From a virus, in IMG/VR virus record IMGVR_UViG_3300043425_001058, positions 1 to 35,606 of that record: a stretch of DNA of 35,606 nt. One strand, given 5' to 3'. Position 1 is the stretch's first letter; each line of letters begins with the position of its first letter. The notes under the pieces were generated by a model, which made no database searches, was not told the origin of the DNA, and was given only the letters and a program-made list of their open reading frames with translations. Shown one piece after another: positions 3,560-34,728 of the stretch. The position numbers were made by a program, and so were the translations under genes.

Positions 3560-3855
3560 GCGACACTGCGCTGCGCTACGCCGTTCTGGATGAGAACGGG
3601 GTTAAAGTTAACGGTATTTTGGTCAACGACCCGTACCCGCAGGACTACTGGCCGGGCTATGGCCGGTACATCACGTGCGAGTATGGCGAGCCGAACCCGA
3701 CGCCGCCTGCCGATCAGGTCATCAAGCAGCCGCCGCGCGAGTTTACCTATCTGACGGTTCGTCCTCAGGCACGGATGAACATCGGCGACAGCATGGACCT
3801 TGCCACTGGAGCGGTTACGCCTGCACCGCAGCCCGATCCTGAGCCCACCGAATGA
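3556..3855 (+). CDS. Small fibre-accessory protein, copy 1
   Basis: This 99-aa protein starts in an ATGA overlap with the fibre gene. The N-terminal pattern (YAVLDENGVKVNGILVNDP) and the C-terminal ATGAVTPAPQPDPEPTE match in layout the 61-aa protein at 9083 (AAVVDILTNIVINIIVANP ... PATGTFTDPNAPTE), which also follows an IDGGG fibre. Proteins of this kind (a hydrophobic V-N-x-I-V strand and a W-x-Y/A-T-G-x-F/V-T closing segment) often follow fibre genes in phages. They may be small fibre-tip or fibre-assembly proteins. The role is inferred from position and paralogy only. Confidence 0.65.
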   Translation: MSDTALRYAVLDENGVKVNGILVNDPYPQDYWPGYGRYITCEYGEPNPTPPADQVIKQPPREFTYLTVRPQARMNIGDSMDLATGAVTPAPQPDPEPTE

Positions 3856-4757
3856 GCCAGAACGTCCAGATTTTCACATCTGGTTCTGGTAGTTGGACCA
3901 AACCCTCATGGGCAAAGCTCGTGAGGGTTGTCTGCGTTGGTGGCGGTGGCGGAGGCGGCGGGGGCGACACGGCGGCTTCGGGTACGGCGGTTTCAGGCGG
4001 TGGCGGTGGTGGCGGGGCCTCACGCGCTGAGACGTGGTTTCAGGCTTCTGATCTTGGCAGCACCGAGCCCTATTCGGTTGCGTCTGCTGGCACTGCTGGC
4101 ACTGCTGGTACTGGCACGGGCGGCGGCAACGGCGGACAGGGTGGGAACTCCACCTTTGGCAGCGGCAACACGCTTGTTACCGGATATGGTGGTGGTGGCG
4201 GGTCTGGTGGGTCAACGGCAAATTCGGCGGGCGGCGGCGGCGGCGGTTTGTCAGGCGTTGGGGGAACCGCGTCCGGTGCGACTAATGGCACCGCTGGGGT
4301 AAATGGCGGCAATTCCGGCGGCGGTTCAGGCGGAGCGGGAGCAAACTCAAATCTAGGCGGGGCAGGCGGCAGCGGCTCAAGCACCAGTGGCGGTTCCGGC
4401 GCTGGCGGAGCGGCCATTTCTGGCGGCGGTGGGGGTGGCTCAGGCGGGGCAAAAACAACTGTTCCTGCATATTCTGTAGGCGGGGTCGGGGGGCAAAATC
4501 GCACGTCTATCGAAGACGCGGCGGCTGCGGGGTCAAATTCCGGCGTTGTGAACGGCTATACCGGGGGCTCAGGCAATCTCGGCTTTGCCGGTGGCGGCGG
4601 CGGAGGAGGCGGAGCTAACGCAACAACGGCAGGAACCGGCGGCGCAGGCGGCTTCCCGGGCGGCGGAGCGGGCGGAGGAGGCGCGTCCATTACCGGCGGT
4701 GCAGCCGGTGCCGGTGGCGCTGGCGGCGCTGGTATCGTGATCGTGTGGAGCTACTGA
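3852..4757 (+). CDS. Glycine-rich adhesin-like protein, type A copy 1
   Basis: This 301-aa protein opens with a beta segment (VQIFTSGSGSWTKPSWAKLVRVV) and then becomes one long array of Gly-rich runs divided by short strands. Known markers include the GGGG stretches, ASDLGSTEPYSV and GGNGGQGGNSTF. It ends GGAGGAGIVIVWSY, so the last strand closes on the first. The pattern matches the glycine-rich domain found in phage fibre tips, where poly-Gly type II helices can pack into a receptor-binding sandwich. It is most similar to the gene at 5700. The start overlaps the previous stop (ATGA). It is probably a distal adhesin, though a virion surface fibre of other function is possible. Confidence 0.75.
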   Translation: MSQNVQIFTSGSGSWTKPSWAKLVRVVCVGGGGGGGGGDTAASGTAVSGGGGGGGASRAETWFQASDLGSTEPYSVASAGTAGTAGTGTGGGNGGQGGNSTFGSGNTLVTGYGGGGGSGGSTANSAGGGGGGLSGVGGTASGATNGTAGVNGGNSGGGSGGAGANSNLGGAGGSGSSTSGGSGAGGAAISGGGGGGSGGAKTTVPAYSVGGVGGQNRTSIEDAAAAGSNSGVVNGYTGGSGNLGFAGGGGGGGGANATTAGTGGAGGFPGGGAGGGGASITGGAAGAGGAGGAGIVIVWSY

Positions 4758-4758
4758 C

Positions 4759-5700
4759 ATGGCCCCCGTCTCTCAGGTCAAAGTTGAGAAGTTCACCTCG
4801 GGTTCCGGTACGTGGACCAAAGAGCCGTGGGCCAACTATATCCGCCTTGTGCTCATCGGGGGCGGCGGTGCGGGGGGAACTGGTCGTCTTACCACGACAT
4901 TAGGTTCTGGTGGGGCTGGTGGCGGTGGCGGCGGGGTTCTGGACATCACGCTCGCGGCATCTCAGTTTGGTTCGTCTGAAAGCTATTCGGTTGCTGCCAG
5001 CGTGTCCGCCCCGACAGCGGCCAGCACTGGCGGCTCCCAAGGGAACACAACCACTTTCACACTTGGTTCTGGGGCAACAACGCTATCCGCGTATGGCGGC
5101 GGTGGCGGAGGTGCAGGCGGGGGCAACAACCCCGGAGGCGGAGGCGGCGCTGGTTTGTCTGGCTCTGGCGGAAACGGCACTGTATCGGCTGCTGGTGCTG
5201 CTGGGGCGAATAACGGCTCTGCCGGAGCCACAACGGCAAATGCAGTTAACAGCACGTCCATTCAAGGTGGAGGCGCTGGCGGGGGTGGTAGTGTTTATGG
5301 TTTCGGGGGGACTAATGCTGGTTCTGCTCCTTTCGGCAGCGGCGGCGGTGGCGGCGGCGCTGGGTATGACAGTACAAAAGCCGCGACGGACGCCGGGGCT
5401 GGCGGGGCATCTCGTTACATTCCGGGCGGCACGTCTGGTATCGGCAGCGGAACGGTAGCAGGCGGAAACGGACAGAACAGCAATTGCGCTGGCCCCGGTT
5501 CTGGTGGTGGTGGGGGTGCAAGCTCTGCCACGGCATCGGGCAAGGGCGGGAACGGCGGAACGCCGGGCGGCGGCGGGGGCGGCGGCGGCGCTGTTTTGAA
5601 CACGGGGACGCTTGGCGCTGGCGGCGACGGCGCTCGTGGCGAAATCTGGGTGATCTCGTTCCAGTCCATGCCCAATCGAGCTACAGGGTGGGTCGCCTGA
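4759..5700 (+). CDS. Glycine-rich adhesin-like protein, type B copy 1
   Basis: The protein has 313 residues, starting 1 nt after the previous stop with GGAG at about 4744-4747. The head segment (QVKVEKFTSGSGTWTKEPWANYIRLVLIGGG) is like type A, but the following part differs: GGGVLDITLAASQFGSSESYSVAAS, then TLSAYGGGGG and INSTSIQGGGAGGGG-like blocks. The C-terminus is GARGEIWVISFQS plus a short unique tail. The gene at 6614 is its closest relative in the window. A receptor-binding fibre tip is the likeliest role. G-rich sequence makes its coding strand very asymmetric. Confidence 0.75.
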   Translation: MAPVSQVKVEKFTSGSGTWTKEPWANYIRLVLIGGGGAGGTGRLTTTLGSGGAGGGGGGVLDITLAASQFGSSESYSVAASVSAPTAASTGGSQGNTTTFTLGSGATTLSAYGGGGGGAGGGNNPGGGGGAGLSGSGGNGTVSAAGAAGANNGSAGATTANAVNSTSIQGGGAGGGGSVYGFGGTNAGSAPFGSGGGGGGAGYDSTKAATDAGAGGASRYIPGGTSGIGSGTVAGGNGQNSNCAGPGSGGGGGASSATASGKGGNGGTPGGGGGGGGAVLNTGTLGAGGDGARGEIWVISFQSMPNRATGWVA

Positions 5701-6614
5701 TGCCTATGGACGTTCAGATTTTCACTTCCGGTTCCGGTAACTGGACTAAGCCTAGCTGGGCAAGCGTTGTCGAGGTTATCTGCATCGGGGGCGGCGGGGG
5801 CGGAGGTGGTGGCGACACGGCTGCGTCTACGACGTTGGTTACTGGCGGCGGCGGCGGCGGAGGTGCTTCGCGCTCGTATCGGCTTTATCGCGCGTCTGAT
5901 CTGGGCAGCACGGAGCCCTATTCGGTAGGAGCGGCTGGAACCAGCGGTTCCGCTGGCACCGGTTCTGGTGGCGGCACTGGCGGGCAAGGTGGAAACAGCA
6001 CATTCCGTTCCGGCACCAATATCCAGACGGGATACGGCGGTGGTGGTGGGTCGGGCGGCGCGGCTTCTACGGCATCGGCTGGAGGGGGTGGCGCAGGTTT
6101 GTCTGGCGCAGGTGGCAATGCCTCGGGCGTAACTGCTGGTTCCGCTGGAGCAAATGGTGGAGCAGCCGGAAGCACAAACGGTGGCGTCCCCACAGCACAA
6201 TCTAACCTCGGCGGAGGGGGCGGAAGTGGGACTGCTTCATCATCAGCAAGTGGTGCTGGCGGAGCCCCTTCAATTCTAGGCGGCGGAGGTGGCGGGTGTG
6301 GGGCCGGTAAAACTGCTGCCCCCGGTTATGTCGCTGGCATCCCCGGCGGACAGTCTCGTGCCACCATGCTTGATGCTTCTGCGGGCGGAGCAAACACTGG
6401 CGTTGTAAATGGTTATGCCGGAGGAACTGCACCTCTTGGCTTCGCAGGCAGCGGTGGCGGCGGTGGCGGTGCTAACGCAACAACTGCGGGCGTAGGCGGC
6501 AACGGCGGCTTTCCCGGCGGCGGCGCTGGCGGAGGCGGTGCTTCCATCACGGGCGGCACGGCAGGCGCAGGCGGTACAGGAGGCGGCGGCGTGGTCGTCG
6601 TGATTTCGCAGTAA
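5700..6614 (+). CDS. Glycine-rich adhesin-like protein, type A copy 2
   Basis: ATG at 5700 shares one base with the previous TGA and gives 304 residues. A longer reading from 5484 runs through the preceding gene and is not credible. An ATG at 5706 is also possible. The protein repeats the type A landmarks almost in register with the gene at 3852: VQIFTSGSGNWTKPSW, a GGDTAAS segment, ASDLGSTEPYSV, GGTGGQGGNSTF and GYGGGGGSGG, closing with GGGVVVVISQ. The differences sit mainly in the loops between Gly runs, which fits diversification of a receptor-binding surface after duplication. Confidence 0.75.
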   Translation: MPMDVQIFTSGSGNWTKPSWASVVEVICIGGGGGGGGGDTAASTTLVTGGGGGGGASRSYRLYRASDLGSTEPYSVGAAGTSGSAGTGSGGGTGGQGGNSTFRSGTNIQTGYGGGGGSGGAASTASAGGGGAGLSGAGGNASGVTAGSAGANGGAAGSTNGGVPTAQSNLGGGGGSGTASSSASGAGGAPSILGGGGGGCGAGKTAAPGYVAGIPGGQSRATMLDASAGGANTGVVNGYAGGTAPLGFAGSGGGGGGANATTAGVGGNGGFPGGGAGGGGASITGGTAGAGGTGGGGVVVVISQ

Positions 6615-7570
6615 TGGTCGCTTCTCAGGTCAAAGTTACGGTTCTGACTTCCGGGTCGAGCAGCTTCTCCAAGCAGTCGTGGACGCAGTGGGTGCGGCTG
6701 GTGCTCATTGGTGGTGGCGGTAGTGGTGGTGCTGGCATATCTAACGCTTCTGGAACTGCAAATAGCGGTGGGTCCGGTGGAGGCGGCGGCGGTGTTCTCG
6801 ATATCACGCTGGCAGCATCCCAACTCGGCGCGTCAGAAAATTATTCAGTTGCAGCGTCTGTTTCCGGCGGAACTGGTTCTGGCGGAAATGGCGCAGGGGG
6901 TAATAATACAACTTTCAATATCGGTTCCAACACAACCACTTTAACGGCTTACGGTGGTGGCGGCGGTGCGTCTGGAAAGACCAATAGCAACTCCGGGGCT
7001 GGCGGAGGAGCCGGGCTTTCTGGCGCTGGTGGTAGCGCGACAACAGGGACTGCCGGAGTGGCGGGCGCGAATAACGGTGCGACAGGAAACGTCGCCTCTG
7101 TTTCCATCCAAGGCGGCGGCGGTGGCGGAGCGCAAGGCTCAAACGGGTCATCTCCTTTGCTTGGTCTAGGCGGGTCTTCTCCATTCGGCGCAGCCGGTGG
7201 TGGAGGCGGCGGCGGGGTATCTGCTGCTGCTGCGTATTTTAATGGTGTCTCTGGCGGTGCATCCCGAGACATAGCAGGCGGCGCAGCAGGTACGACTGCC
7301 GGAACAAAAGCAGGAACGGCAGGAACCGCGAGTGGATGCGCGGCACCCGGCTCAGGAGGTGGCGGCGGTGCGTCTGATGCGACCGCTGCTGGCGCTGGAG
7401 GCGCTGGCGGTACACCGGGAGCTGGTGGCGGAGGAGGCGGATCGACCATTACAGGCGGAACCGTTGGAAACGGCGGGTCCGGTGCCCGTGGCGAAATCTG
7501 GATCATTGAATACGAGAACGACCCGGGCGCTGTCATCGGTGGCGTTGGTTATGGTATAATGGCCGGGTGA
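6614..7570 (+). CDS. Glycine-rich adhesin-like protein, type B copy 2
   Basis: This 318-aa protein has its ATG overlapping the previous TAA. It shares the type B signature with 4759-5700: SQVKV...TSGS, WVRLVLIGGGG, GGGVLDITLAASQLGASENYSVAAS, TLTAYGGGGG, VSIQGGGGGG and a GARGEIWIIEYEND ending. An extra C-terminal stretch (PGAVIGGVGYGIMAG) is hydrophobic. With the three preceding genes it completes an A-B-A'-B' row. It is probably part of the same adhesin or fibre tip, or an alternative version of it. Confidence 0.75.
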   Translation: MVASQVKVTVLTSGSSSFSKQSWTQWVRLVLIGGGGSGGAGISNASGTANSGGSGGGGGGVLDITLAASQLGASENYSVAASVSGGTGSGGNGAGGNNTTFNIGSNTTTLTAYGGGGGASGKTNSNSGAGGGAGLSGAGGSATTGTAGVAGANNGATGNVASVSIQGGGGGGAQGSNGSSPLLGLGGSSPFGAAGGGGGGGVSAAAAYFNGVSGGASRDIAGGAAGTTAGTKAGTAGTASGCAAPGSGGGGGASDATAAGAGGAGGTPGAGGGGGGSTITGGTVGNGGSGARGEIWIIEYENDPGAVIGGVGYGIMAG

Positions 7571-9280: not shown

Positions 9281-11803
9281 ATGCCCGTCATCATCCTCAC
9301 CGGCGGTACGTCTTGGACGGTTCCGGCTGACTGGAACTCGGCTGATAACAGCATCGTCGCCATTGGCGGCGGCGGCGGGGGTGGCGGCGCTACCAACACA
9401 AGCTCCTCTTCTGGCGGCGGTGGAGGCGGCGCGGCGTCAATTGTAACCAATCTGGCGCTCACACCGGGAGCGTCTATTACCTATGCTGTTGGCGCGGCAG
9501 GAACCGCTGGGTCGTCTTCGCCCAGCGCTGGCGGCACCGGCGGCGATACTTATTTTAATGGTGCAAGCCTCGCGGCCTCGTCGGTCGGTGCTAAAGGCGG
9601 CACCGGTGGCGGTAGCGCATCCAGCGGTAACGCCGGAACGGCGGGCTCAGGCGGTGCATCCGCTTCTGGTGTTGGCACGACCAAATACAGCGGCGGTAAC
9701 GGTCTCGCCGGTACAAGCGGAACACGCGGTGGCTCGGGCGGCGGCGCGGCTGGCCGCAGCGGCGCAGGCGGAAACGGCACCACAACTACCGGCGGAACGG
9801 CGGATGCCGGTACAGTGGCTGGCGGCGCGGTTAACACCGCGGGCACGGCGGGGGCCTATTTCACATACACCAATTCCTATAGCGGAACGTATAACAACGC
9901 TAGCGCTCGCGCAGGGTCGGGAAGCGGCGCGGGTGCTTCGACAACACCTAACGTCGCTGGAAAAGCCGGTGGGGCTTATGGCGGCGGCGGTTCCGGCACG
10001 CGTCTTGACAGCCCCGGGAACATTGCGGGCGGTGCTGGCGCGCAGGGTGTAATCATCATCACCTACGCTCCCGCGTCTAAGACCGTAGTTCTTACGAGCG
10101 GCACAACGTGGCTGGTCCCGGCGGATTGGAATTCGTCGAACAACACGATCACGACAATTGGCGGCGGCGGAGGCGGTGGGTCAGGTAATATCCCTGACGG
10201 CGGCGCGGGCGGCGGCGGTGGTGCAGCATCTACGATCACCAATCTGTCGCTCACTCCCGGCGCGACAGTTACCTACGCCATCGGTTCTGGTGGCACCGCG
10301 GGAGCTGCCAGCAATGGCGGCACCGGCGGAAGCACTTATTTTAACGGTGCAAGTCTTGGAGCTTCCTCCGTCGGCGCAGTGGGCGGCGGCGGGGGTATTA
10401 TTGCCGGGAGCGGTGGGACCGGCGGCGCTTCGGCGTCCGGTGTAGGCACTACGAAGTTCTCAGGCGGAAACGGCCAAGCTCAATTTAACACGGCAGGCGC
10501 GCCCGGCGGCGGCGCAGCCGGGCGAACCGGCGCGGGCGGGAACGCAAATACGACGACCAGCGGTTCCGCCGACGGCGGGCTGGTCAGCGGGGTTGCAAAC
10601 CAGACGGCGGGCATCTCCGGCAGCTACATTCAGGCGCTGAACGGCTACACCTCAACCGGCTACTCTAATGTCTCGCGCGGTGTAGGCTCCGGTTCTGGCG
10701 CGGGCGGTAACACGTCCTCTACTCAGACAGCGGGGCAATACGGCGGGGGAGGCTGCGGCGGTCGTAGCGGTGGCGTCACTGGCGGCGTCGGCGCTCAGGG
10801 CGCGATCATCATTACCTACACACCCACGCAGAAAACCATCCTTCTTGAAAGCGGCACGACGTGGACGACGCCGCAAGATATGACCGCTAATAACACCATC
10901 ATCGCCATCGGCGGCGGCGGCGGAGCAGCGAGAGCTACAGACGGGGGTAGCGCCGCGCGCGGCGCGGGCGGTGGCGCACTTTCGGCCAACAGTAATTTTA
11001 TTTTTGGCAAGGGAACAACTGTCTATTATTCCGTCGGCGCGAGCGGGGCTGGCGCGACGGCCGCTAACACTAACGGAACCGCGGGTGGCGACACGTGGCT
11101 GAACTGGAATACCAGCACTAACACGTCGACCAACACTGCGCCGACATCTGACACGACGGGTGTACTTGCAAAGGGCGGAGGCGCTAGCACTACTGCTGCC
11201 ATAGGATCAGGCGGTGCTTCGGCCAGCGGTTTCGGCGCTACAAAGTACTCTGGCGGAAGCGGAGGCAATAGCGCTGGGACAGACGATGGCGGTGCTGGCG
11301 GCGGTTCTGCCGCAACTGCCTCGGCCAATGGATATAATGGTGGCACGGCTACCGGCCTTGGCGGCGGCGGCGGCGGGGGTATTGCAGGCGTTGGCGCGTC
11401 TGTTACGAGCACATCCGGCGGCGCTGGCGGGCTCAACGCTATCGGAACGCAAGCTGCGGGTCCCGCTTCGGGCGCAGCCGGTAATAACGGTATCCTTGGC
11501 GGCGGCGGCAGCGGCGCTGGGTCTTCGAGTAGAGATGGCGGTGCCGGGGGCAGCGGTCAGTACTACATTCTGCCGACAGGCATTGCCGTTGGCCCCGGCG
11601 GCGCTGGCGGCGGCGGCTCAGGCACCACAGACAGCGGTAACACTGGTGGGTTTGGCGGAAACGGCGGTATTTACGGGGGCGCGGGCGCAGGTGGCGGCGG
11701 TGGCGGTACAACGGGCAACGGCGGTTATGGCGCACAGGGCGCAATCCTTGTAATATACACGCCGTCGAGCGGAGCCGGTAATCAAGGCTACGTCATCATC
11801 TAG
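9281..11803 (+). CDS. 840-aa triple glycine-rich domain protein (adhesin-like)
   Basis: Three glycine-rich domains occur in tandem. Domain 1 (about 1-266) opens VIILTGGTSWTVPADWNSADN. Domain 2 (267-517) opens TVVLTSGTTWLVPADWNSSNN. Domain 3 (518-840) opens TILLESGTTWTTPQDMTANN. Each opens with a Trp-containing strand, runs through Gly-rich arrays with conserved blocks (YFNGASL, GGASASGVGTTKxSGGNG) and closes with GAQG-[VA]-I-x-I-x-Y-x-P. The closing strand of one domain leads straight into the next. Domains 1 and 2 are more alike than either is to 3. The ribosome-binding site is CGGAG before the ATG. It probably forms a trimer-like or single-chain receptor-binding tip. This is inference from family. 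Confidence 0.75.
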   Translation: MPVIILTGGTSWTVPADWNSADNSIVAIGGGGGGGGATNTSSSSGGGGGGAASIVTNLALTPGASITYAVGAAGTAGSSSPSAGGTGGDTYFNGASLAASSVGAKGGTGGGSASSGNAGTAGSGGASASGVGTTKYSGGNGLAGTSGTRGGSGGGAAGRSGAGGNGTTTTGGTADAGTVAGGAVNTAGTAGAYFTYTNSYSGTYNNASARAGSGSGAGASTTPNVAGKAGGAYGGGGSGTRLDSPGNIAGGAGAQGVIIITYAPASKTVVLTSGTTWLVPADWNSSNNTITTIGGGGGGGSGNIPDGGAGGGGGAASTITNLSLTPGATVTYAIGSGGTAGAASNGGTGGSTYFNGASLGASSVGAVGGGGGIIAGSGGTGGASASGVGTTKFSGGNGQAQFNTAGAPGGGAAGRTGAGGNANTTTSGSADGGLVSGVANQTAGISGSYIQALNGYTSTGYSNVSRGVGSGSGAGGNTSSTQTAGQYGGGGCGGRSGGVTGGVGAQGAIIITYTPTQKTILLESGTTWTTPQDMTANNTIIAIGGGGGAARATDGGSAARGAGGGALSANSNFIFGKGTTVYYSVGASGAGATAANTNGTAGGDTWLNWNTSTNTSTNTAPTSDTTGVLAKGGGASTTAAIGSGGASASGFGATKYSGGSGGNSAGTDDGGAGGGSAATASANGYNGGTATGLGGGGGGGIAGVGASVTSTSGGAGGLNAIGTQAAGPASGAAGNNGILGGGGSGAGSSSRDGGAGGSGQYYILPTGIAVGPGGAGGGGSGTTDSGNTGGFGGNGGIYGGAGAGGGGGGTTGNGGYGAQGAILVIYTPSSGAGNQGYVII

Positions 11804-14074: not shown

Positions 14075-17000
14075 ATGGCTGGCACCGGCGGCACGACCAC
14101 CTACAACCCGATGAGCGTGCTCACCGGCACCACCTTGTTGCCGAAAACCACGGCTGCGGTGGTAAAGCCTGCGGCTACAACACAGCCCGCCACCAGCACC
14201 AAAAAGACAACCACTACGCTCAGCGAAATGATGGGCGGTTCTCCATCTGGTTCCGCAACCAAGACGACATCGAAGCCCGCCGCGCCTAAAGCCGCTGCGC
14301 CGACGCTTACCCAGATGATGGGCGGCTCATCCGCGTCTGCCGCCAAGGCCGCCCCCAAGGCCCCGACGCCCACTCAAAAGCAGGCTATCAATTCGCTCGC
14401 TGGCCTGAACTTGGCTGCTCCGACTGCTCCCGCCGCGCCGCAGCAGCAGTCGAAGGCCGCTATCGCGAATGCCTTCATGCAGGCCATGGCGGCCGCTGCG
14501 CCGAAGGGCCTCGGCGTGCCTGACCCGAAGGGCCTGACCGCCGACGAAGCCAACAAGTACCGGTCACAGTTCTACACGAACTATTACGCCGGGAAGCCGG
14601 TCGAGCAGATCGTGGAGCCGATGGATATGGCGCAGGCTTCTTTGGCCTACGACATCAACAAGCGGATGGACCCGGCGCTTGAGGCGTCTCTAAACGATCC
14701 GTTCGGCAACCGCCCCGCCCCAACTTACCCGCCCGCGTGGGGCCTTCTCGGAGCCGACCGGCCCCAGTCGCTCGGCCCTGTTGCCCCGTCTTATGGGCCG
14801 GGCGTCAACACTATTGGCATGCCGCAGATGCAGTACGTCGCCCCCGGAACCGATCCGTATGGGCGCGGGATCGATGCCATTGGCATGCCGCAGATGAACT
14901 ATGTCGCGCCGGGCAACCAGCGCGTCACATTCACGCCGCAGGCCGTGCGCCCCGGCGTACCGGCCGGTATGCCTGCCGCGCCCGCGCCTGCCGCTCCGGC
15001 TGGCGGCGGCTACGACACTGACATGCTCAACGCCAAGGGCATCGCGCGCTACCTGCTGCAGGACATGATGGGGCGGCAGCAGCCCGCCACGGTCATTACG
15101 GCGCGGCAGCAGGCCCCCGGCTTCGACCCGATGAGCCTGCTCATCGGGCAGGCCAAGGCCGATGAGTTTAACCCGGCCATGGTCAACGATACGTCGATGG
15201 AAGACGCGCTGATCCGTCAGGGAATTGTTCCCGGCATTCCGATGGCGGAACAGAAACTCGCTCCTGTTCCGTATCCGCGTCCGGTCACCAGCGCTGAAAC
15301 CACGATGCCGTTGACCGATGTCTACGATGCAATGAACAGGAGTATATCGCCGTTTGATCGCATCGGCGCTGGCATCGCGGGCATAAAAATTCCCGGCTCC
15401 CCTACTGAGCTAAACGACGTCATCCAACAGCAGCTCGCTGGCCTCGGCACTTATGACCCGAACACCGGGCGGGTCGTTATTCCTAACGCGACGTCGCGCG
15501 AAGCGCAGGCGGCTCTCGCAGCCATGCAAGCGCAGCCGAAGATGGGCGACATCCTGCAGCCCTATATCGACGCTGCGGTCCGTACCCGCACGCCGGTTCC
15601 GACTGATCGCGCGGTTCCTCTTGATATGACCCGACCGGTCCCTGCCACGGTGCCGACGCGTCCTGCCGCGCCCAGCGTTCCCGTAGCAGAAGTTCCGTCC
15701 TACGTCAGCGGCCCCGGTGCCACCAAGGCCAACGCTGATTACGCGGCGCAGCAGCGCGCGGGCATCGATGCGCTTCTCGCTGGTGGTCAGGCTGCTGCCG
15801 ATACGGCAGTCCCGGCTAACCGGCAGGGGCAGTATGGCGCGCTCGACGACCTCCTTTCTGGTCGGCAGTTCCAGCAGTGGACAGCCGAGGGCGAAGCTCA
15901 GAAAGCCAAGCGGTTGGCCGAAGGCGTCGATCCGACGAACCTTTACGACAACCTGCTGTGGAGCATGGGTTTGTATCAGCCGACCAAGGGCGCGCCTTCA
16001 CCGGTTCCGCCCGCTCCTGCGCCCGTTCGTGTCGGAAACGAAGAACGGTTGTCGCCCGGTCAACCGCTTGAATTCAAAGACCCGAACGCCGTCGCGCAAA
16101 TGGACCCCATCGGGGTGGCTCCGTCGTTTGCTGACGTGCTCAGCAAAGCGGGCATCACCAAGACTGGCAGCGCCGCGAACCCGACCTATTGGAACAGCGT
16201 AGGCGACGTCATCAATACCGGTACGGGGCTTTCGGCTTCGTCCGGCGAAACGATGGTAGGCGCAGGCCCGGAAGGCGACGGCTCCTACATGAGCACGGCG
16301 GATACAAGCCCTGCTCCGACAGCGGCCTCGTCTGGCGTGAGCGACGTCACCAAGTATGGCAAGACCACCAGCGGGGCCGACAAGTTCGTCGTGCCGCAGG
16401 GCCAGATTTTGGGCACCAATGGCTATCTCTACGAAGTGACCGGCACGGACGCGCAGGGCAAGCCGACCTACAAGCAGGTCGGCAAGGTTCCCGGCTACAC
16501 TGACGCCCAGCTCTACAAGGCTGCTAACCGCGGCGCGTTCCGCGATCCCAACAACGTCGCCGAAGGCGGCACGACGCCGAAGCCGCCCAGCGCGATCCGC
16601 ACTTGGGCCCGGGCGCAGCTCGACAAGTACAATGCCGAAGTAGCCAAGAACAAGGCAGCGGCCGAAGCCAAGGGCGAGACCTACAATCCGGTCTCCTTCA
16701 TGGACTACCTGTCGCTGGCCGGTAGCGCCGCGACCGGAAACGTCGCTGGCCTGCTGATGAAGGGCGGCCAGATGATGTATCCGCAGATCATCGAGTGGCT
16801 GGCCAGCGGCCCGTCCTCGACCGGTGACAGCGACGGCACGATGATGGACGGCTCGCCGTCGTCTTCGTCGTCGTCGAAAAAGAGCAAGAAGAAAAAGGAC
16901 GACGAGGACGAAGACACGGATGGCGGCACCGGCGGCACTGGCGGTACAGGGACCGGCACTGGCCCGACCGGCGGCAGCCTGCAGACCGGCTACACCATGT

Positions 17001-17362
17001 CGAACTTCCCCTATCTGCGTCCGTACCTGACACCGGTCTTCCCGGGCGCGGGCTATCGCCCCGGCATCGACACGGAATGGAACTACTATCCGGGCTCTGA
17101 GCGCGCGTATGCCGCTGGCGGCGCGGTCGAGGTTCCGCGCTATGTGGTCGGGCCCGGCGGCCCCAAGGACGACAAAATCCCGGCGCGCATCGACGGCGTG
17201 CACGAGGCCCGTCTGTCGAACGGCGAGTTCGTGATCACGGCCGAAGCGGTCAAGGGTCTCGGCGGCGGCGATCCGGTCAAGGGCGCTGAAGAGCTGACCA
17301 AACTCAACAACATGTTCTCGTCGCGGCCGACGCCGCGCGTCAACGTGGAGAAGGTTCGGTGA
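14075..17362 (+). CDS. 1095-aa putative internal/ejected virion protein
   Basis: GGAG precedes the ATG. Residues 1-110 are low-complexity Thr/Ala/Lys with the opening MAGTGGTTTYNPMSVLTGTT and two copies of a T-L-x-x-M-M-G-G-S motif. A similar opening is found on the metallopeptidase-like protein at 33283-34542. The centre is Ala/Pro-rich with a 22-residue repeat (IGMPQMxYVAPG). Around residues 925-970 lies a Ser-Lys-Asp-Glu-Gly low-complexity linker. The C-terminus (VGPGGPKDDKIPARIDGVHE, then ARLSNGEFVITAEAV) matches a widespread C-terminal motif of large phage virion proteins. No enzymatic motif was seen. By size and location among structural genes it may be packed in the head or tail and delivered with DNA. 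That is inference. Confidence 0.65.
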   Translation: MAGTGGTTTYNPMSVLTGTTLLPKTTAAVVKPAATTQPATSTKKTTTTLSEMMGGSPSGSATKTTSKPAAPKAAAPTLTQMMGGSSASAAKAAPKAPTPTQKQAINSLAGLNLAAPTAPAAPQQQSKAAIANAFMQAMAAAAPKGLGVPDPKGLTADEANKYRSQFYTNYYAGKPVEQIVEPMDMAQASLAYDINKRMDPALEASLNDPFGNRPAPTYPPAWGLLGADRPQSLGPVAPSYGPGVNTIGMPQMQYVAPGTDPYGRGIDAIGMPQMNYVAPGNQRVTFTPQAVRPGVPAGMPAAPAPAAPAGGGYDTDMLNAKGIARYLLQDMMGRQQPATVITARQQAPGFDPMSLLIGQAKADEFNPAMVNDTSMEDALIRQGIVPGIPMAEQKLAPVPYPRPVTSAETTMPLTDVYDAMNRSISPFDRIGAGIAGIKIPGSPTELNDVIQQQLAGLGTYDPNTGRVVIPNATSREAQAALAAMQAQPKMGDILQPYIDAAVRTRTPVPTDRAVPLDMTRPVPATVPTRPAAPSVPVAEVPSYVSGPGATKANADYAAQQRAGIDALLAGGQAAADTAVPANRQGQYGALDDLLSGRQFQQWTAEGEAQKAKRLAEGVDPTNLYDNLLWSMGLYQPTKGAPSPVPPAPAPVRVGNEERLSPGQPLEFKDPNAVAQMDPIGVAPSFADVLSKAGITKTGSAANPTYWNSVGDVINTGTGLSASSGETMVGAGPEGDGSYMSTADTSPAPTAASSGVSDVTKYGKTTSGADKFVVPQGQILGTNGYLYEVTGTDAQGKPTYKQVGKVPGYTDAQLYKAANRGAFRDPNNVAEGGTTPKPPSAIRTWARAQLDKYNAEVAKNKAAAEAKGETYNPVSFMDYLSLAGSAATGNVAGLLMKGGQMMYPQIIEWLASGPSSTGDSDGTMMDGSPSSSSSSKKSKKKKDDEDEDTDGGTGGTGGTGTGTGPTGGSLQTGYTMSNFPYLRPYLTPVFPGAGYRPGIDTEWNYYPGSERAYAAGGAVEVPRYVVGPGGPKDDKIPARIDGVHEARLSNGEFVITAEAVKGLGGGDPVKGAEELTKLNNMFSSRPTPRVNVEKVR
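14813..14896 (+). repeat. 18-bp direct repeat within the 1095-aa protein gene
   Basis: ATTGGCATGCCGCAGATG occurs at 14813-14830 and again at 14879-14896. It is the core of a 22-codon repeat giving IGMPQMQYVAPG and IGMPQMNYVAPG. Confidence 0.9.
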
Positions 17363-17796
17363 ACTGGTCGGCGGGTATCGTCGCCGACCACGAAGTCGAT
17401 CTGATCTGGGGCTTGGCGCTACCGTTGCTGCAACCGGGCATCGACCGCAGCGGCGGTCGCATCTCGGCAGAGACGGTGCTCGAAGCCGTGCACAACAAGA
17501 CGAACTTACTCTGGTTGATCAGCAACGAGAGTGAGATAGCGGCGGCGTTCACTACCCGGGTCGCCAAATACCCGCTCAAGTCCATGCTCGTCGTCGAATG
17601 CCTCGGCGGCGACCGGATGCAGGAGTGGGTGGAGCCGGTAAACGAGACGCTGCTGCGTTTCGCCAAGGACTGCGGCCTCTCCGGGGTCGAGATGTATGGC
17701 CGCGAAGGCTGGACGAAAGCGCTGGCACCCTATGGATGGAAACGCTCAATGGTGCTATGTGAAGTAGGATTAGAGCAGGAGACGGCGGATGTCTAA
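17359..17796 (+). CDS. Small GNAT-like protein in the virion gene block
   Basis: The start is a GTG in a GTGA overlap with the previous stop; 145 residues. The order of segments (LLWLISNESEIAAAFTTRV, then YPLKSMLVVECLGG, WVEPVNETLLRFAKDCGLSGVEMYGREGW and YGWKRSMVLCEVGL) follows the strand-helix pattern of GNAT-fold proteins, with a GREGW segment typical of their C-terminal half. The usual Q/R-x-x-G-x-G/A acetyl-CoA loop is not evident, so catalysis is uncertain. Similar proteins occur in environmental phages at the same place, next to the internal-protein genes. It could modify a virion protein, act after ejection, or be a non-catalytic scaffold. Confidence 0.55.
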   Translation: MNWSAGIVADHEVDLIWGLALPLLQPGIDRSGGRISAETVLEAVHNKTNLLWLISNESEIAAAFTTRVAKYPLKSMLVVECLGGDRMQEWVEPVNETLLRFAKDCGLSGVEMYGREGWTKALAPYGWKRSMVLCEVGLEQETADV

Positions 17797-18715
17797 AGGC
17801 GCGGACACCTCGACCACCACAAATTCGGCCCAGCTTCCCGACTACATCAAGCCGTATGTCGAGCGGTTCCTCCCCAAGGCGGAGGCTATCTCTACCCAGC
17901 CGTACCAGCCGTATGGCGGGCAGCGGCTCGCTGACTTCTCGCCGGATACGCAGGCCGCGTTCGGTATGGTGCGCCAGAACGCCGCCGATCCGCTTACTGG
18001 TCTGACGCAGGCGCAGCAGACCGCGGGCGGGCTTGCGAACTATCAGGCCGGGAACATCGGGACGACTGACTGGACCGGCGCGAATGTTCAGGGCTACATG
18101 AACCCCTACATCCAGAATGTGCTGGATGTGCAAAAGCAGCGCGCGAACCAGAATTTTCAGGAACAGCAGGCCGCGCGCGATGCCGCGGCCATTCAGGCTG
18201 GTGCCTTTGGCGGCAGCCGCCGATTTGTTCAGGACATGGCGGCGCAGCGCGACACCAACCAGCAGCTTCAGGCCATGGAGGCCGAAGGGCTCGCCAACGC
18301 CTACCAGCAGGCGCAGAACATGTTTACGTCCGATCAGGGCCGCATGCTTCAGGCGCAGATGGCGAATGAAGAGGCGCGGCGTCTGGGTTCGGCTTTCGGG
18401 CTCGATGCGGCCAGAACGCAGGCCGACCTTACCCAGAAGGGCTATGACCTTCGCAATGCTCAGGCTGAGGCGCTGTCGAGCGTCGGGGCCAAGGAGCAGC
18501 AGCGTCAGCAGGCCGGTCTCGATCTGGCGTATCAGGACTATATCCGCCAGCAGGAATACCCCTACACGCAGCTCCAGCGGTATCAGTCGCTGCTTGGCGG
18601 CGGCCCGGCCCCGTCGAGCCAGACGACCACCACGTCCACTCCGCCCCCGGATTTCCTGTCGCAGCTTATCGGCCTCGGTGTCACCGGTGCCGGTATCTGG
18701 GACATGTTCAATTAA
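17789..18715 (+). CDS. Putative internal virion/ejection protein
   Basis: The protein has 308 residues and starts 8 nt before the previous gene ends, with a GGAG ribosome-binding site. A Pro/Tyr-rich opening (QLPDYIKPYVERFLPKAE, then QPYQPYGGQRLADFSP) leads into YMNPYIQNVLDVQKQR and the GAFGGSRR motif. A long Gln/Ala-rich helical region follows (about residues 125-270), and the C-terminus is hydrophobic (FLSQLIGLGVTGAGIWDMF). This layout is common in short-tailed environmental phages, in the place of DNA-ejection proteins. The helical body and hydrophobic end could assemble into part of a trans-envelope channel. Function is inferred. Confidence 0.65.
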   Translation: MSKGADTSTTTNSAQLPDYIKPYVERFLPKAEAISTQPYQPYGGQRLADFSPDTQAAFGMVRQNAADPLTGLTQAQQTAGGLANYQAGNIGTTDWTGANVQGYMNPYIQNVLDVQKQRANQNFQEQQAARDAAAIQAGAFGGSRRFVQDMAAQRDTNQQLQAMEAEGLANAYQQAQNMFTSDQGRMLQAQMANEEARRLGSAFGLDAARTQADLTQKGYDLRNAQAEALSSVGAKEQQRQQAGLDLAYQDYIRQQEYPYTQLQRYQSLLGGGPAPSSQTTTTSTPPPDFLSQLIGLGVTGAGIWDMFN

Positions 18716-18727
18716 GAGCCCGACATC

Positions 18728-20410
18728 ATGGCCATGAACCTCGTAGAGCAGCAAAAAGTCCTCCGCGACCTGACCGACGACATGCTTCAGCAGGCGATGC
18801 AGGGCGGCATGGCTCCGCCCTACATGGTGCTGGCCGAGATCAACCGGCGCAAGGACGCTCGCGAGCGCTACACGGCCCAGAAAGCCAAGTACGACGCCAA
18901 TCAGGCGACCGTGGCGCAGGACATCATGCAGCAGATGGCGCAGGCCACGCAGGCGGCACAGGCACCGGCCCCGACCATGGGTGGCCTCGACAGCGCCATG
19001 GGCGCGCCGATGGGCGTGGAGCCGCCGGTTTCTGGCGGGCTCGACGCCGCGGCCCCGGCCTTTGCCGATGGCGGCATGGTGCAGAAGTTCCAGTCGGGCG
19101 GGATGTCGCTGGCCAATCCGTCAATTATCCAGTCGCTGATGGGCGGATCATCCGCCCCCGCACCTATGTCGACCGGCAATCCGGCGACGATGGCTGGCTT
19201 GCTCTCGTCTGTTAAAAACGACGTGAACCCGTTTCAGTTCGCGTACCCTGAGTACAAGAACCCCTACGGTTCGTTGGTTGACCTCTATACCAGCCAGATC
19301 GAAGGGCTGAACAAGGAGCGTGAGAACGCTCGCGCCATGGCTCTGATTGCGGCCGGTACGGGCATGATGCAGGGCGGTCAGAACACGCTCAAGAACATCG
19401 GCGCGGCCTTCGGTCCGGCCATGGCTGGATATCAGACCCAGATCGGCAGCATCAATCAGGCCGAACGCGATATGCTGAGCGGGAAGGTCAACGCTCAGAT
19501 CGCGGGGACGGAGGCCGAGAAAGCTGCGCGCCGCGAGTTTGAAGACAGCCCACAGGGTCGTGCCCAGTTGGCAAAGTCTCTCGGCTACGAGCCGGGCACC
19601 ACTGAGTACGAACAGCTTGTCGTCAACGGCACGATCCCGACGAGTTCGGGCGGGAGCTTCACTAGCGTTCCGGGCCGCGATAAGGCCGGGCAGCTCATCA
19701 CGGCTCAGTACAACCGCAGGACGGGTAAGTACACGGACAGTGCGGGGAACGAGCTTCCCGGCTTCACTGAGCTGAGCGATGCTGAACTCGCCCAACTGAA
19801 GAAGACAGCGATGGGGATGCCAACGGAACAGCAGTTCCGCGGCGAACTCGGCGCTATGGACGTCAACATCGATAACGCCCAGTTCCAAAAAGGGTCTGTT
19901 CAAAAAGCTATCGATTTTGTGTCCAACCCGAATAACAAGGTCGGCGGGCTGGCCGATCTGCTTTCGGGCATCGGTGGAACAGACGCCAACCGCCTCAAGT
20001 CGCTTGTCTCCACGGTCAAGGCAAACACTGCTTTTGGTCAGCTCGACGAACTTCGTCGGCTCGCGGCCGCGACGGGCGCAGTGGGCAGCGGTCTCGGTCA
20101 GGTCACGCAGAACGAAATGCGGCTTTTGGAAGACGCGGTGGCCACGGTCGAAACTTCGAACAAGCGCGAAGACATCTACAACGCGCTGCTCACCGTTCGG
20201 GATAAATACGACAGCATCATCGAAAAGATTAAGCGCATGACCGCGCTCGTGTACCAAGACTACATGGGAAAGGTCGAGCCGGGCTCTTTTGAAGAGCAGA
20301 TCATCCAGCGTCACGGGCTGGACAATCTGGACTTCAGCAAAAGCATCACCGACGCGGCGTCGGGCCCGGCCGCGGGTAGCGACATACCTGATCCGCTTGG
20401 CATGCGGTAA
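18728..20410 (+). CDS. Putative internal virion protein
   Basis: The protein has 560 residues. The N-terminus (LVEQQKVLRDLTDDMLQQAM, then GGMAPPYMVLAEINRRKDAR) is a recurring opening of large phage internal proteins. A segment ADGGMVQKFQSGGM at about residues 114-127 recalls motifs in the 14075 and 1038 products, and PSIIQSLMGGSS nearby resembles the T-L-x-x-M-M-G-G-S motif of the 1095-aa protein. The rest is mainly helical, with ENARAMALIAAGTGMMQGG around residue 200 as a Gly/Ala/Met-rich, possibly membrane-active stretch. An ATG two codons downstream is an equal start choice. Placed in the ejection-protein block. Confidence 0.65.
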   Translation: MAMNLVEQQKVLRDLTDDMLQQAMQGGMAPPYMVLAEINRRKDARERYTAQKAKYDANQATVAQDIMQQMAQATQAAQAPAPTMGGLDSAMGAPMGVEPPVSGGLDAAAPAFADGGMVQKFQSGGMSLANPSIIQSLMGGSSAPAPMSTGNPATMAGLLSSVKNDVNPFQFAYPEYKNPYGSLVDLYTSQIEGLNKERENARAMALIAAGTGMMQGGQNTLKNIGAAFGPAMAGYQTQIGSINQAERDMLSGKVNAQIAGTEAEKAARREFEDSPQGRAQLAKSLGYEPGTTEYEQLVVNGTIPTSSGGSFTSVPGRDKAGQLITAQYNRRTGKYTDSAGNELPGFTELSDAELAQLKKTAMGMPTEQQFRGELGAMDVNIDNAQFQKGSVQKAIDFVSNPNNKVGGLADLLSGIGGTDANRLKSLVSTVKANTAFGQLDELRRLAAATGAVGSGLGQVTQNEMRLLEDAVATVETSNKREDIYNALLTVRDKYDSIIEKIKRMTALVYQDYMGKVEPGSFEEQIIQRHGLDNLDFSKSITDAASGPAAGSDIPDPLGMR

Positions 20411-31485: not shown

Positions 31486-31782
31486 ATGCCCAAACTGGAA
31501 CTTGAGAGCAGCCTCGAAGAACGGTGCGTCCAGATCGTGGAGCGCCTCGGCGGGATGGCCCTCAAACTCCAGATACCGGGCGTGAGAGGCTTCCCCGACC
31601 GAACGATCCTGATCCCCGGCAAGCGCGTCTGGTTCGCCGAGTTCAAGAGGATCAAGAGCGGTCGCGTCTCGTCCCAGCAGTTGCGCTGGATCGAACGCCT
31701 TGGGCGGGCCGGGTTCGCGGCCTATGTGATCGACAACGAAGACGATTTTGAGAAGGCACTGAGGAAAGAGACCGATGCGTAA
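31486..31782 (+). CDS. VRR-NUC domain nuclease
   Basis: ATG at 31486 has GGAG eight bases upstream and gives 98 residues. A longer in-frame reading from 31297 crosses the promoter and is not credible. Motifs are GVRGFPDRTILIPGKRVWFAE: the catalytic D38 in FPDR, E52-x-K54 in AEFKR and Q64 in SSQQLRW. Stand-alone phage VRR-NUC proteins are structure-specific nucleases, often next to an SNF2 helicase, as here (8-nt overlap). The likely role is in replication fork or recombination intermediate processing. Confidence 0.9.
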   Translation: MPKLELESSLEERCVQIVERLGGMALKLQIPGVRGFPDRTILIPGKRVWFAEFKRIKSGRVSSQQLRWIERLGRAGFAAYVIDNEDDFEKALRKETDA

Positions 31783-33286
31783 GAAAAGCGACCTCCACGA
31801 ATACCAGCAGCAGGCCATCGACTGGCTCTATGAGCACAACGCCGCGCTGGCCCTGCTGCCGGTGGGCGCGGGCAAGAGCGTGATCGGTTGGACGACCGCG
31901 CAGGAACTGATGCGCGCCGGGCACGTGAAGCGGCCGCTGGTGTTCGCCCCGATGCGCGTGGCGCAGCTTGTGTGGCCCGCTGAGCGCAAGGAATGGGAGC
32001 ATCTTCAGCATGAGCCCATAGTGGCGTGGGGCGGCGAGCCGTCGGCGTGGGAGGATGGCCTCTGGAAAGAGAGCCGTATCCTCTGGGGCAAGATCAACTC
32101 GCTGGCCAGCCGCCTGCCGAAGATCAAGGACACGATCAAGCTGCGCGAGCAGCAGGCCAAGCTCAGGGACCTGCAGGCGCAGGCCAGCATCGTCAACCGG
32201 GCGATCCGGGCGACCGCGCCGCCTGACTGCCTGCATGTCACGTCGTATGAGAACCTGATGTGGCTCTGCGAGCTTTATGAGCCGGGGCGGTCGCCGTTCG
32301 ACCTCTGGATTTTCGACGAGATCGGCAAGCTCAAGAACCCGAAGTCGCCGCGCTACAAGGAAGTAAAGAAGCACACGGCGCTGGCCAAGATTGTCTGGGG
32401 CCTGAACGCCACGCCCGCGCCGGAAGGGTTTGAAGACCTCTACACGCAGGTGACGATCTGCGACGGCGGCAAGCTGTGGGGCAAGAGCTTCTACCAGTGG
32501 CGGCAGAAGTGGTTCGCGCCGGTCGACTATCAGGGCTACAAGTGGCGGCTTCAGTACGGCTCAAAAGAGAAGCTGCTGGGCGACCTGAACACGCTTGCCT
32601 TCAAGGTGGACGAGAGCCAGCTCAGCTACCAGCGCAGCATGGCCCACAGCCAAATCAAGGTGGTGCTGCCGCCCAAGGCCCGCGGGCTCTATGACCAGAT
32701 GGAGAAGGAAATGTTCGCGGCGGTGCCCGATGCCGACATCACCGCCTTCTCGGCCGCTGCCGCGTCGATGAAGCTGCGCCAGATCACGCAGGGCTTCATC
32801 TATGACGAAGAGGGCGGCGCGCACATCATCCACGAAGAGAAGATGCATGCGCTGGCGGACCTGATCGACGACCTGAACGGCGAGCCGCTGCTCGTGGCCT
32901 ACGAGTTCACCGAAGACCTCGAAGCCATCCGCAAGGTCTGGAAGAACGTTCCGTATCTCGGGCAGGGCATCTCGGCCGCCAAGGCTGAGGACCACGTCAC
33001 CCGCTGGAACAAGCGCGAACTGCCGGTGCTGGCGCTGCACCCGTTCTCGGCCGGGCACGGCCTCAACCTGCAGAAGGGCGGCAGTCACATCGCGTGGTAC
33101 GCACTGCCGTGGCCGCTGGAGAGCTTCATCCAGACCAACGGTCGGATCGACCGGCAGGGTCAGACGCGCGCCTGCTTCGCCCACCACATCGTCGCCCAGA
33201 ACTCAATGGACGAGCGGGTGAGCGAGGCGCTCCAGCGCAAGGATGCTGATCAGGAGGCCATCATCAAGGCGATCCGTCGCGTTTAG
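31775..33286 (+). CDS. SNF2-family helicase/ATPase
   Basis: The protein has 503 residues. Motif I is LLPVGAGKS (K34), motif II is FDEIGKLKNPKS (D181, E182), and motif VI at the end is QTNGRIDRQGQ. A helical, charged insertion of about 60 residues (100-150, rich in KLREQQAKLRDLQAQ) separates motif Ia and motif II and looks like a coiled coil. It is probably a DNA translocase or fork-remodelling helicase acting with the VRR-NUC nuclease encoded upstream. The stop overlaps the opposing stop of the metallopeptidase-like gene (TTAG, 33283-33286). Confidence 0.9.
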   Translation: MRKKSDLHEYQQQAIDWLYEHNAALALLPVGAGKSVIGWTTAQELMRAGHVKRPLVFAPMRVAQLVWPAERKEWEHLQHEPIVAWGGEPSAWEDGLWKESRILWGKINSLASRLPKIKDTIKLREQQAKLRDLQAQASIVNRAIRATAPPDCLHVTSYENLMWLCELYEPGRSPFDLWIFDEIGKLKNPKSPRYKEVKKHTALAKIVWGLNATPAPEGFEDLYTQVTICDGGKLWGKSFYQWRQKWFAPVDYQGYKWRLQYGSKEKLLGDLNTLAFKVDESQLSYQRSMAHSQIKVVLPPKARGLYDQMEKEMFAAVPDADITAFSAAAASMKLRQITQGFIYDEEGGAHIIHEEKMHALADLIDDLNGEPLLVAYEFTEDLEAIRKVWKNVPYLGQGISAAKAEDHVTRWNKRELPVLALHPFSAGHGLNLQKGGSHIAWYALPWPLESFIQTNGRIDRQGQTRACFAHHIVAQNSMDERVSEALQRKDADQEAIIKAIRRV

Positions 33287-34542
33287 GGGAGCCACGGAAC
33301 AGAGCCAACCAAAGGGTCACCGGGTTTCGGGGCCTCGCCTACCTTGGCTAGCTTGGGCTCAAACTCAAGCTGGTCCAGCATACGGCTGTAGGAAAGCGGC
33401 ATAAAGGTAAGCTGGTTTGGCGAAACTTTTTGACGCATCTCAGAAAGGCGAGCATCGCCTTCTCCGACCGTAGTCAGATACTGGCGGTTGGTTATGCCGT
33501 TCCCCGGGGCGCTGCCGCCGGGTCGGTTGAAACCATACTGCATCCCGTGCTCACCTTCGTGAAACAGGACGTTCATCAACTCATCGAGGGACAAGTTCGG
33601 GTTAATGAGCATATAATTCCCGGCAGGCGAGTATGCGCCCGTGTACTTGATCGGCGTTTTTGCGGGCATCATGGCAACGCGCATGTCGGCGATAGGGCCT
33701 TTCGCCGCGTTCTGCCCCGCGGCAAACAGCTCCGGGTAGTCAAAGAACGACTTGAGCGGAACCGACGAAGCATGGGACGCGCCAGCTTTTGGGACCGGCG
33801 GCAGTTTCGAGAGATCAACTCCCGCATTGTATGCGCCCGGAATTTCGAAGACTGTTCCGCCGTACTGCTGCGGACGATATTCCAGCCCGTAGCGGGTCCA
33901 TATTTCATCCGGGGTGAGCGGCATACCCTTGCTGGCGTAATAGTCGATGTCGTTTCTGGCTGCCTGATCCGCTGCCTTGTTAAACAAGGGTGACAGTTCG
34001 TTGCCAAAGATGCCAAGCGACCCGGCCGGGCGCGGCACGACCGAGCCTGCGCCCGCAAAGTTGCCGGTGAAGTTCAGCGCGTCGGCGATGCCGCCAGCCG
34101 TGGCGTAGCCCGGCGTGAAATTCTGGTTCCGGCCGGAGAGAACGTCACCGGGCAGCTTGAAGGCATCGATGGCCGACTGCATGAAACCCGGCATGGCAAG
34201 GCGGCGCTCGCCGGTGATGGTGTTCTTCTGGATCGGCAGAAGCGCGCCGGTTTCCCACGCGTTCGCGACCTTCTGCGCTTGCTGTGCCGGGGCCACACGG
34301 CGCTGCGCCATGAACTGATCGAGGCCTCCAGCCGGTACGGCAGCAGCGGCAGGCTTCTTGGTTGCGGTAGAACTGGGGCTACCGCTCGATGACATGATCG
34401 ACGACAGGGTGACAGGTTTTGCCGCCGTGAGGGTTGTCGACTTGGCAACGGCGGGCTTGGCGACCGGCTTCGGCGCAAGCAGCGTCGTGCCCGTGAGCAT
34501 GCTGATGGGTGAGTAGCTGCTGGTGCCGCCGGTCGATGCCAT
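33283..34542 (-). CDS. Putative HExxH zinc metallopeptidase with virion-protein-like N-terminus
   Basis: The protein has 419 residues, with a GGAG ribosome-binding site in the end of the preceding gene. Residues 1-22 (MASTGGTSSYSPISMLTGTT then LL) match the start of the 1095-aa virion protein at 14075 in 16 of 22 positions. Residues 23-110 are Thr/Ala/Pro/Lys-rich and probably disordered. Later comes VLFHEGEHGMQYGFN with H328-E329-x-x-H332, and YLTTVGEGDARL (E361 a possible third ligand). The layout resembles metallopeptidase domains of polyvalent phage/plasmid proteins (LHExxHAxQ ... GExEAR). I infer an injected or virion-carried protease. A structural role, with the motif inactive, is the main alternative. 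Confidence 0.65.
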   Translation of the reverse strand: MASTGGTSSYSPISMLTGTTLLAPKPVAKPAVAKSTTLTAAKPVTLSSIMSSSGSPSSTATKKPAAAAVPAGGLDQFMAQRRVAPAQQAQKVANAWETGALLPIQKNTITGERRLAMPGFMQSAIDAFKLPGDVLSGRNQNFTPGYATAGGIADALNFTGNFAGAGSVVPRPAGSLGIFGNELSPLFNKAADQAARNDIDYYASKGMPLTPDEIWTRYGLEYRPQQYGGTVFEIPGAYNAGVDLSKLPPVPKAGASHASSVPLKSFFDYPELFAAGQNAAKGPIADMRVAMMPAKTPIKYTGAYSPAGNYMLINPNLSLDELMNVLFHEGEHGMQYGFNRPGGSAPGNGITNRQYLTTVGEGDARLSEMRQKVSPNQLTFMPLSYSRMLDQLEFEPKLAKVGEAPKPGDPLVGSVPWLP

Positions 34543-34728
34543 TTACTTCACTCCGGGGCCACGCCGCTGGTGGCGCTTGGCATCAGGCTTCGCCTTCTTC
34601 GGCGGCTTGGCCTTACCGGCCGTGTTGAGCGCGATGGCGATGGCCTGCTTCTGCGGACGGCCGGTATCCATCAGCTCCCTGATATTGGCACTGATGGTCT
34701 TTTGGGACTTGCCCTTCTTGAGCGGCAT
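34543..34728 (-). CDS. Small basic protein (DUF6496-like)
   Basis: The protein has 61 residues with a strong GGAGG ribosome-binding site. The N-terminal half (MPLKKGKSQKTISANIRELM, then GRPQKQAIAIALNTAGKA) is a known small-protein pattern in phages and Proteobacteria. The C-terminus is Lys/Arg/Pro-rich (KRHQRRGPGVK). It probably binds nucleic acid through charge, but no function is established. The stop (TAA) directly abuts the ATG of the metallopeptidase-like gene, so the two are coupled. Confidence 0.75.
   Translation of the reverse strand: MPLKKGKSQKTISANIRELMDTGRPQKQAIAIALNTAGKAKPPKKAKPDAKRHQRRGPGVK

Follow-up and report, generated by a model that had tools for sequence, protein, structure and literature searches.

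Why does a metallopeptidase-like protein of a phage begin with the N-terminus of an otherwise unrelated, likely virion protein encoded in the same genome? Polyvalent-type zinc proteases are thought to be injected into cells by phages and, to our knowledge, the way in which proteins are selected for particle entry and ejection is poorly known outside T4, P1, T7, N4 and P22. A natural fusion points to the residues that carry a candidate loading signal, and here the candidate is 22 residues long. The DNA analysed (the window, taken over its full length) comprises the 35,606 bases of an IMG/VR record from an uncultured bacterial virus. None of its genes was recognised as a terminase, portal or major head gene, and the window is therefore probably a fragment. 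The locus comprises the following features.

33283..34542, minus strand: chimeric protein of 419 residues with an ATG start, made up of a virion-type leader, a linker and an LPD23-like/metallopeptidase core
34477..34542, minus strand: its leader, residues 1-22 (MASTGGTSSYSPISMLTGTTLL)
34258..34476, minus strand: Thr/Ala/Lys/Pro-rich linker, residues 23-95, with TLSSIM (45-50) and ATKKPA (60-65)
34018..34257, minus strand: core module, residues 96-175 (LLPIQKN..TGERRLAMPGF..AF.LPGDVLSG), where homology with stand-alone phage metallopeptidases starts
33823..34023, minus strand: divergent LPD23-like region, residues 174-240, aligned with the LPD23 of relatives
33391..33771, minus strand: zincin-like metallopeptidase domain, residues 258-384
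33547..33561, minus strand: HEGEH motif, residues 328-332 (H328, E329, H332)
33448..33465, minus strand: GEGDAR, residues 360-365, with E361 as the predicted third zinc ligand
34543..34728, minus strand: gene of 61 residues (phrog_2423), its stop codon directly adjoining the ATG of the chimeric gene

The stop codon of the 419-residue gene overlaps that of a convergent helicase gene (31775-33286), and GGAG stands eight bases upstream of the start of the ORF. The gene belongs to a leftward operon that adjoins a DUF6378 gene and lies behind a divergent HTH gene; it is likely to share one transcript with the 61-residue phrog_2423 gene. As the first-pass annotation had pointed out, it is remote from the structural genes, which lie on the other strand. 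Contig L003 is the same phage: it is 99.8% identical to the window over 12.3 kb, and its 25 differences include one in the 419-residue gene and none in the leader. In another locus with a related protease (G021, L205), a similar-looking small gene stands three genes upstream of the protease, in a region that leads on to terminase genes. Elsewhere in the window (3852-4757, 4759-5700, 5484-6614, 6614-7570 and 9281-11803, plus strand) are Gly-rich paralogues in tandem, which share the start TSGSGxWTKPxWA... followed by a VxxIGGGGGGG run and are probably variable tail-fibre-type proteins; contig L067 has the same kind of tandem Gly-rich proteins.

The catalytic motifs are present where they had been described, FHEGEH with H328, E329 and H332 and, downstream, GEGDAR with E361. 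H328, E329, H332, Q335 and G343 are invariant among 30 aligned proteins, HExxH occurs in all 29 aligned relatives, and 28 of the 29 have Glu at the column of E361. Profiles built without the window protein, from seeds that were gathered with it as the confirming query, matched the metallopeptidase domain at E=5e-13 (4525 ORFs) and, with a second profile, at 4e-11, and matched the module of residues 96-175 at E=2e-9. Pfam LPD23 (PF18838) has no match in the 419-residue protein, and a family profile of the LPD23-like region gave 9.6 bits, which is not significant; the region aligns in position. The protein also deviates from its family at near-invariant positions (H269Y, Y276G, P277Q, D236G). 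No significant family was found for it in Pfam, PHROGs or NCBIfam, the match to PF20573 (DUF6782) reaching E=0.005 only, below its cut-off. Searches for close relatives of the whole protein gave none in GenBank phages at E<=0.01, none in genome contigs and, in viral contigs, the same phage only.

An AF2 model of residues 96-419, built with 30 sequences, reached pLDDT 74 and pTM 0.66, with pLDDT of ~79-90 over the LPD23-like region (174-240) and ~87-95 over most of residues 255-345, up to the HExxH helix. The order of elements in the model (helix, three strands, HExxH helix, Glu helix) is that of zincins. The full-length 419-residue protein gave a poor model (pLDDT 55). In BFVD, a library of viral structures, there were 12 matches at E<=1e-3 (best E=2e-11), six of them named large polyvalent protein associated domain proteins. 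A search of PDB structures returned nothing below E=0.07, and the weak top matches (E>=0.07) are mostly zincins, namely IrrE, selecase and deuterolysin. The protease core is predicted to adopt a zincin fold. The earlier reading as a polyvalent-type metallopeptidase is upheld by sequence profiles, the conservation of catalytic residues, the predicted fold and the viral structure matches, and assignment of the putative catalytic part as a divergent member of the known polyvalent-protein zincin metallopeptidases is well supported. The accompanying suggestion of an undescribed protease must be dropped, since the class is known: Iyer et al. 2017 (PMC5512222) described zincin metallopeptidases within polyvalent proteins. 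The 419-residue protein has one recognisable catalytic domain; with this single domain and its small stand-alone form it is a member of the metallopeptidase family and not strictly a polyvalent protein.

A loose-threshold tblastn search led to giant proteins of Pseudomonas phage 8P (named 'structural protein') and phage ctsTn925, in both of which the matching HExxH region directly follows a Pfam LPD23 domain. Scanning viral contigs with alignments yielded ~45 loci with relatives, some duplicated, which comprise giant polyvalent proteins and many stand-alone proteins, the latter mostly of ~320-1000 residues. Most of the stand-alone relatives checked carry Pfam LPD23. The N-termini of these related proteases are their own, short and variable: 11 stand-alone relatives begin to match the window protein at residues 96-101 and none covers residues 1-95. 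The counterpart of the likely virion protein in a second phage, contig L010, matches residues 1-94 and nothing else, and residues 1 to ~65 (alignable to ~94) match only the 1095-residue protein of the window and this orthologue. The sharp boundary at 94-101 indicates that a fusion swapped the N-terminus of the metallopeptidase for that of a likely virion protein; the 419-residue protein is a clean two-module chimera. This architecture is established, as is the kinship of the core, with its intact HExxH...E set, to polyvalent-type metallopeptidases.

Among 44 scanned proteins that neighbour the relatives, one terminase large-subunit family accounts for nine and one portal family for six; further neighbours gave portal, terminase, major head and scaffold matches. 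In L157 (5860-7692) a stand-alone relative of 611 residues, in which LPD23 and the metallopeptidase region are joined by an ART-PolyVal domain at the C-terminus, is encoded between terminase and portal. The neighbours and this domain fusion agree with a head-associated or delivered role for the relatives, and the terminase, portal and head neighbours add evidence that stand-alone LPD23 metallopeptidases work at the virion.

Within its own genome the 419-residue protein has one other match, between its residues 1-102 and the N-terminus of the ORF at 14075-17362 (E=1.7e-6). The features of this second locus are as follows.

14075..17362, plus strand: likely virion (ejection-module) protein of 1095 residues with the same leader
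14075..14140, plus strand: its leader, residues 1-22 (MAGTGGTTTYNPMSVLTGTTLL)
17359..17796, plus strand: GNAT-like protein (recognised by eye), between the 1095-residue protein and the ejection protein and in the same position in L010 and L067
17789..18715, plus strand: homologue of the DNA ejection protein family phrog_4287 (E=1.1e-24), by which the 1095-residue protein was placed

Alignment bears out the observation that 16 of the 22 leader residues are identical between the two proteins. The Thr/Ala/Lys/Pro tail with its TLxx[MI]M motif is likewise found in both, as TLSSIM in the 419-residue protein and as TLSEMM and TLTQMM in the 1095-residue protein, and past the leader the two also have an ATK..KPA-type stretch in common. 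The local BLOSUM62 score of their first 40 residues is 96, whereas 5000 shuffles of both 40-residue segments gave scores of 60 or less. Among 75,405 same-locus N-terminus pairs from 146 loci, 20 score at least 60, and the higher-scoring pairs are mostly tail-fibre-type proteins or tandem paralogues. The shuffles and these background pairs rule out a chance match from low-complexity sequence. A recent intragenomic duplication of the 5' end is also out: the leader DNA of the two genes is identical at 47 of 66 positions, half of the conserved residues have different codons (8 codons identical, 8 synonymous, 6 non-synonymous) and the regions upstream are unrelated. A Sec signal peptide was set aside, the first 24 residues as read from the sequence containing neither Lys nor Arg.

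The first-pass annotation assumed that the 1095-residue protein is a virion protein, and synteny supports this as likely: the gene lies directly upstream of the GNAT-like gene and the phrog_4287 homologue. The order of the gene in this slot, the GNAT-like gene and the ejection protein is kept in L010 and L067. The L010 orthologue has 969 residues, begins MAGTGGTTTYSPISLLTGTTLLPP and sits in the same gene order. It is 47% identical to the window protein over the whole protein, and of all well-filled 25-column blocks the leader is the best conserved (0.87). That the leader is conserved between the likely virion proteins of two phages is established. After L010, the contig most closely related by its ejection protein (63% identical to that of the window) is L067, and its protein in the 1095-residue slot has no leader. 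There, at L067:6659-9574, a SleB-type cell-wall hydrolase at the N-terminus and an internal LysM stand where the leader would be. The C-terminus is kept, the last 87 residues being 63% identical to the 1095-residue protein, and the more distant relatives L099 and L109 have LysM at the N-terminus. A hydrolase and LysM are what is expected for an entry apparatus, and the comparison supports the 1095-residue protein as a putative virion protein of that apparatus with a variable N-terminal slot.

Two further observations concern this region. A widespread C-terminal motif, GPGGPKDDKIPA..LSNGEFVI..AV, is encoded at 17100-17360 of the window and in many loci (L005, L068-L142), in the gene upstream of the ejection protein; in some phages a similar-looking motif, GRGxDxxLVHMTPxEVxGLxxLA, is found at the N-terminus. 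In place of the 649-residue gene of the window (20428), L010 has at 15519-20057 a gene of more than twice the length, with an HETIH region. This extension is missing from the window phage, whose leader-bearing protease is encoded separately, and a swap in trans is therefore conceivable.

How far is the leader shared? An alignment-based scan of viral contigs found it only in the same phage and in L010, and a further leader alignment scan found only L010. A DNA pattern for YxPxxxLTGTTL picked out 34 stretches, among which the only leaders were those of the same phage's contig and L010. An alignment of the three leaders gave no match in genome contigs covering one genome per bacterial and archaeal species. 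The 27-kb contig of L010, a fragment, holds no second copy, and no leader sharing was seen in 26 contigs around related proteases and phages, most of which are fragments. The best score for N-terminus sharing (first-40 segments) in other phages with related proteases was 47, against 96 here, and this rules out such sharing as a general feature of these phages. The expectation that a second protein would bear the leader thus holds for this phage, in two near-identical contigs, and was not borne out in the other phages, where the absence weighs little as most contigs are fragments.

The leader shows signs of constraint, with fewer changes than neutral drift predicts. Between the protease and the 1095-residue protein there are 6 amino-acid changes against 11.3 expected under neutrality (P=0.0009, simulation), and the other two leader pairs have 3 changes against 9.8 and 4 against 10.4. 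The protease leader is identical to the L010 leader at 18 of 22 residues and to that of its own genome at 16; since it is nearer to the former, selection may have acted in a donor gene before the fusion.

We propose that the natural N-terminus of a phage LPD23-type zincin metallopeptidase was replaced by the leader and flexible linker of an ejection-module protein, some 65-95 residues. The 22-residue leader would dock the 1095-residue protein and, by imitation, the protease at the same assembly site, which may be the portal/core or the ejection complex. The protease would then be carried in the virion, leave with the ejection proteins into the host and there cleave host or phage proteins. To this reading, of a chimeric LPD23-type protease that docks through its leader, travels in the virion and exits together with the ejection proteins, we give an even chance. 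The presence of the 1095-residue protein in the virion, the docking role of the leader, and the packaging, delivery and activity of the protease are inferred. Delivery is favoured by the position of relatives beside terminase, portal, scaffold and head genes or inside giant structural or polyvalent proteins (8P). Several points count against this reading: the protease gene lies outside the structural cluster, the leader is shared between proteins in one phage only, L067 is without it, and the constraint on the leader could have acted in a donor phage and not on the protease. The idea of an address tag, raised by the first-pass annotation, survives in that the leader is real, conserved in L010 and apparently constrained; its packaging role is plausible, and a second carrier occurs in this phage only. 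More tentative, and somewhat short of probable, is the general claim that a portable 'load and eject' tag, MAxTGGTxxYxPxSxLTGTTLL, has been moved in nature to a metallopeptidase to give a virion-delivered protease. If true, such phages would have in this pattern a portable signal for loading cargo into their ejection machinery.

The main rival to a delivered protease is an assembly protease at the same site. The leader would recruit it to where the 1095-residue protein is assembled, it would cleave structural or ejection proteins of the phage during maturation, and delivery would be unneeded. The genes of relatives lie between those for terminase, portal, scaffold and major head proteins, the usual place of head-assembly functions, the 419-residue protein has no other effector domain to release, and processing before packaging has been discussed by Iyer et al. 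for polyvalent metallopeptidases such as that of P1 DdrB (PMC5512222). Yet giant polyvalent proteins and one ADP-ribosyltransferase fusion among the relatives suit delivery, and the gene's location outside the structural cluster of this phage weighs here too; we judge an assembly protease to be unlikely, though a serious contender.

It is also rather improbable, in our view, that the chimera is a by-product of recombination, in which the 5' end of a relative's virion gene was fused to the protease and provides a start region or solubility only and no address. A single instance in all the collections scanned would fit such an accident, the greater closeness of the protease leader to that of L010 could mean a recent import, and short, variable N-termini are seen in related proteases. 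The leader and its LTGTTLL core have nevertheless stayed intact although the protease core is very divergent from its relatives, and amino-acid changes in the leader are fewer than neutral. The upstream region is not shared, so expression signals are not what was copied. The same leader on both proteins, and a protease gene in a separate, possibly early operon, could finally mean that the leader serves as an interaction peptide of another kind, through which the protease competes with or regulates either the 1095-residue protein or a partner of both inside the infected cell. Shared N-termini of phages are more familiar as virion-docking elements, as in fibres and internal proteins, and this last explanation appears very improbable.

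The delivered chimeric protease that we favour can be set against four known systems. The closest is the LPD23-linked metallopeptidases of polyvalent proteins, for which self-processing and an effector action on host proteins have both been discussed (PMC5512222). The window protein resembles them in HExxH with a downstream Glu and in the described order of strands and helices; the region directly upstream is a candidate LPD23-like one, and its relatives are embedded in giant proteins (8P, ctsTn925) or stand alone beside head genes. It differs in being stand-alone with a single catalytic domain and an LPD23 that Pfam does not detect, and, unlike its relatives, it bears the N-terminus of a likely virion protein. 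Tail fibres and spikes with N-terminal docking domains also combine a common N-terminus with different remainders. Their genes are adjacent, whereas in the present pair the protease is encoded in a different operon. Neighbouring genes with a common 40-residue N-terminus and different remainders were seen in L137 (14376-14867 and 15976-17613) and L115 (10278-10826 and 10828-12711), and these are typical adhesin-docking N-termini.

Recurrence of the leader on several proteins in related phages was not found, L010 (a 27-kb fragment) having it on the likely virion protein only. In P1 DarB, a large virion-carried protein, the N-terminal 30 residues are sufficient to package a reporter (PMC9024508). 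The signal is of comparable length to the leader, and the two are likened by position and length, not by sequence comparison. In T4, the CTS of internal proteins, a short N-terminal sequence on otherwise different phage proteins, drives encapsidation into the scaffolding core (PMC3012670). The present leader is known from sequence sharing alone, and one of its two carriers is a large ejection-module protein. Like a virion targeting sequence, it is a short N-terminal sequence on two otherwise unrelated proteins of one phage.
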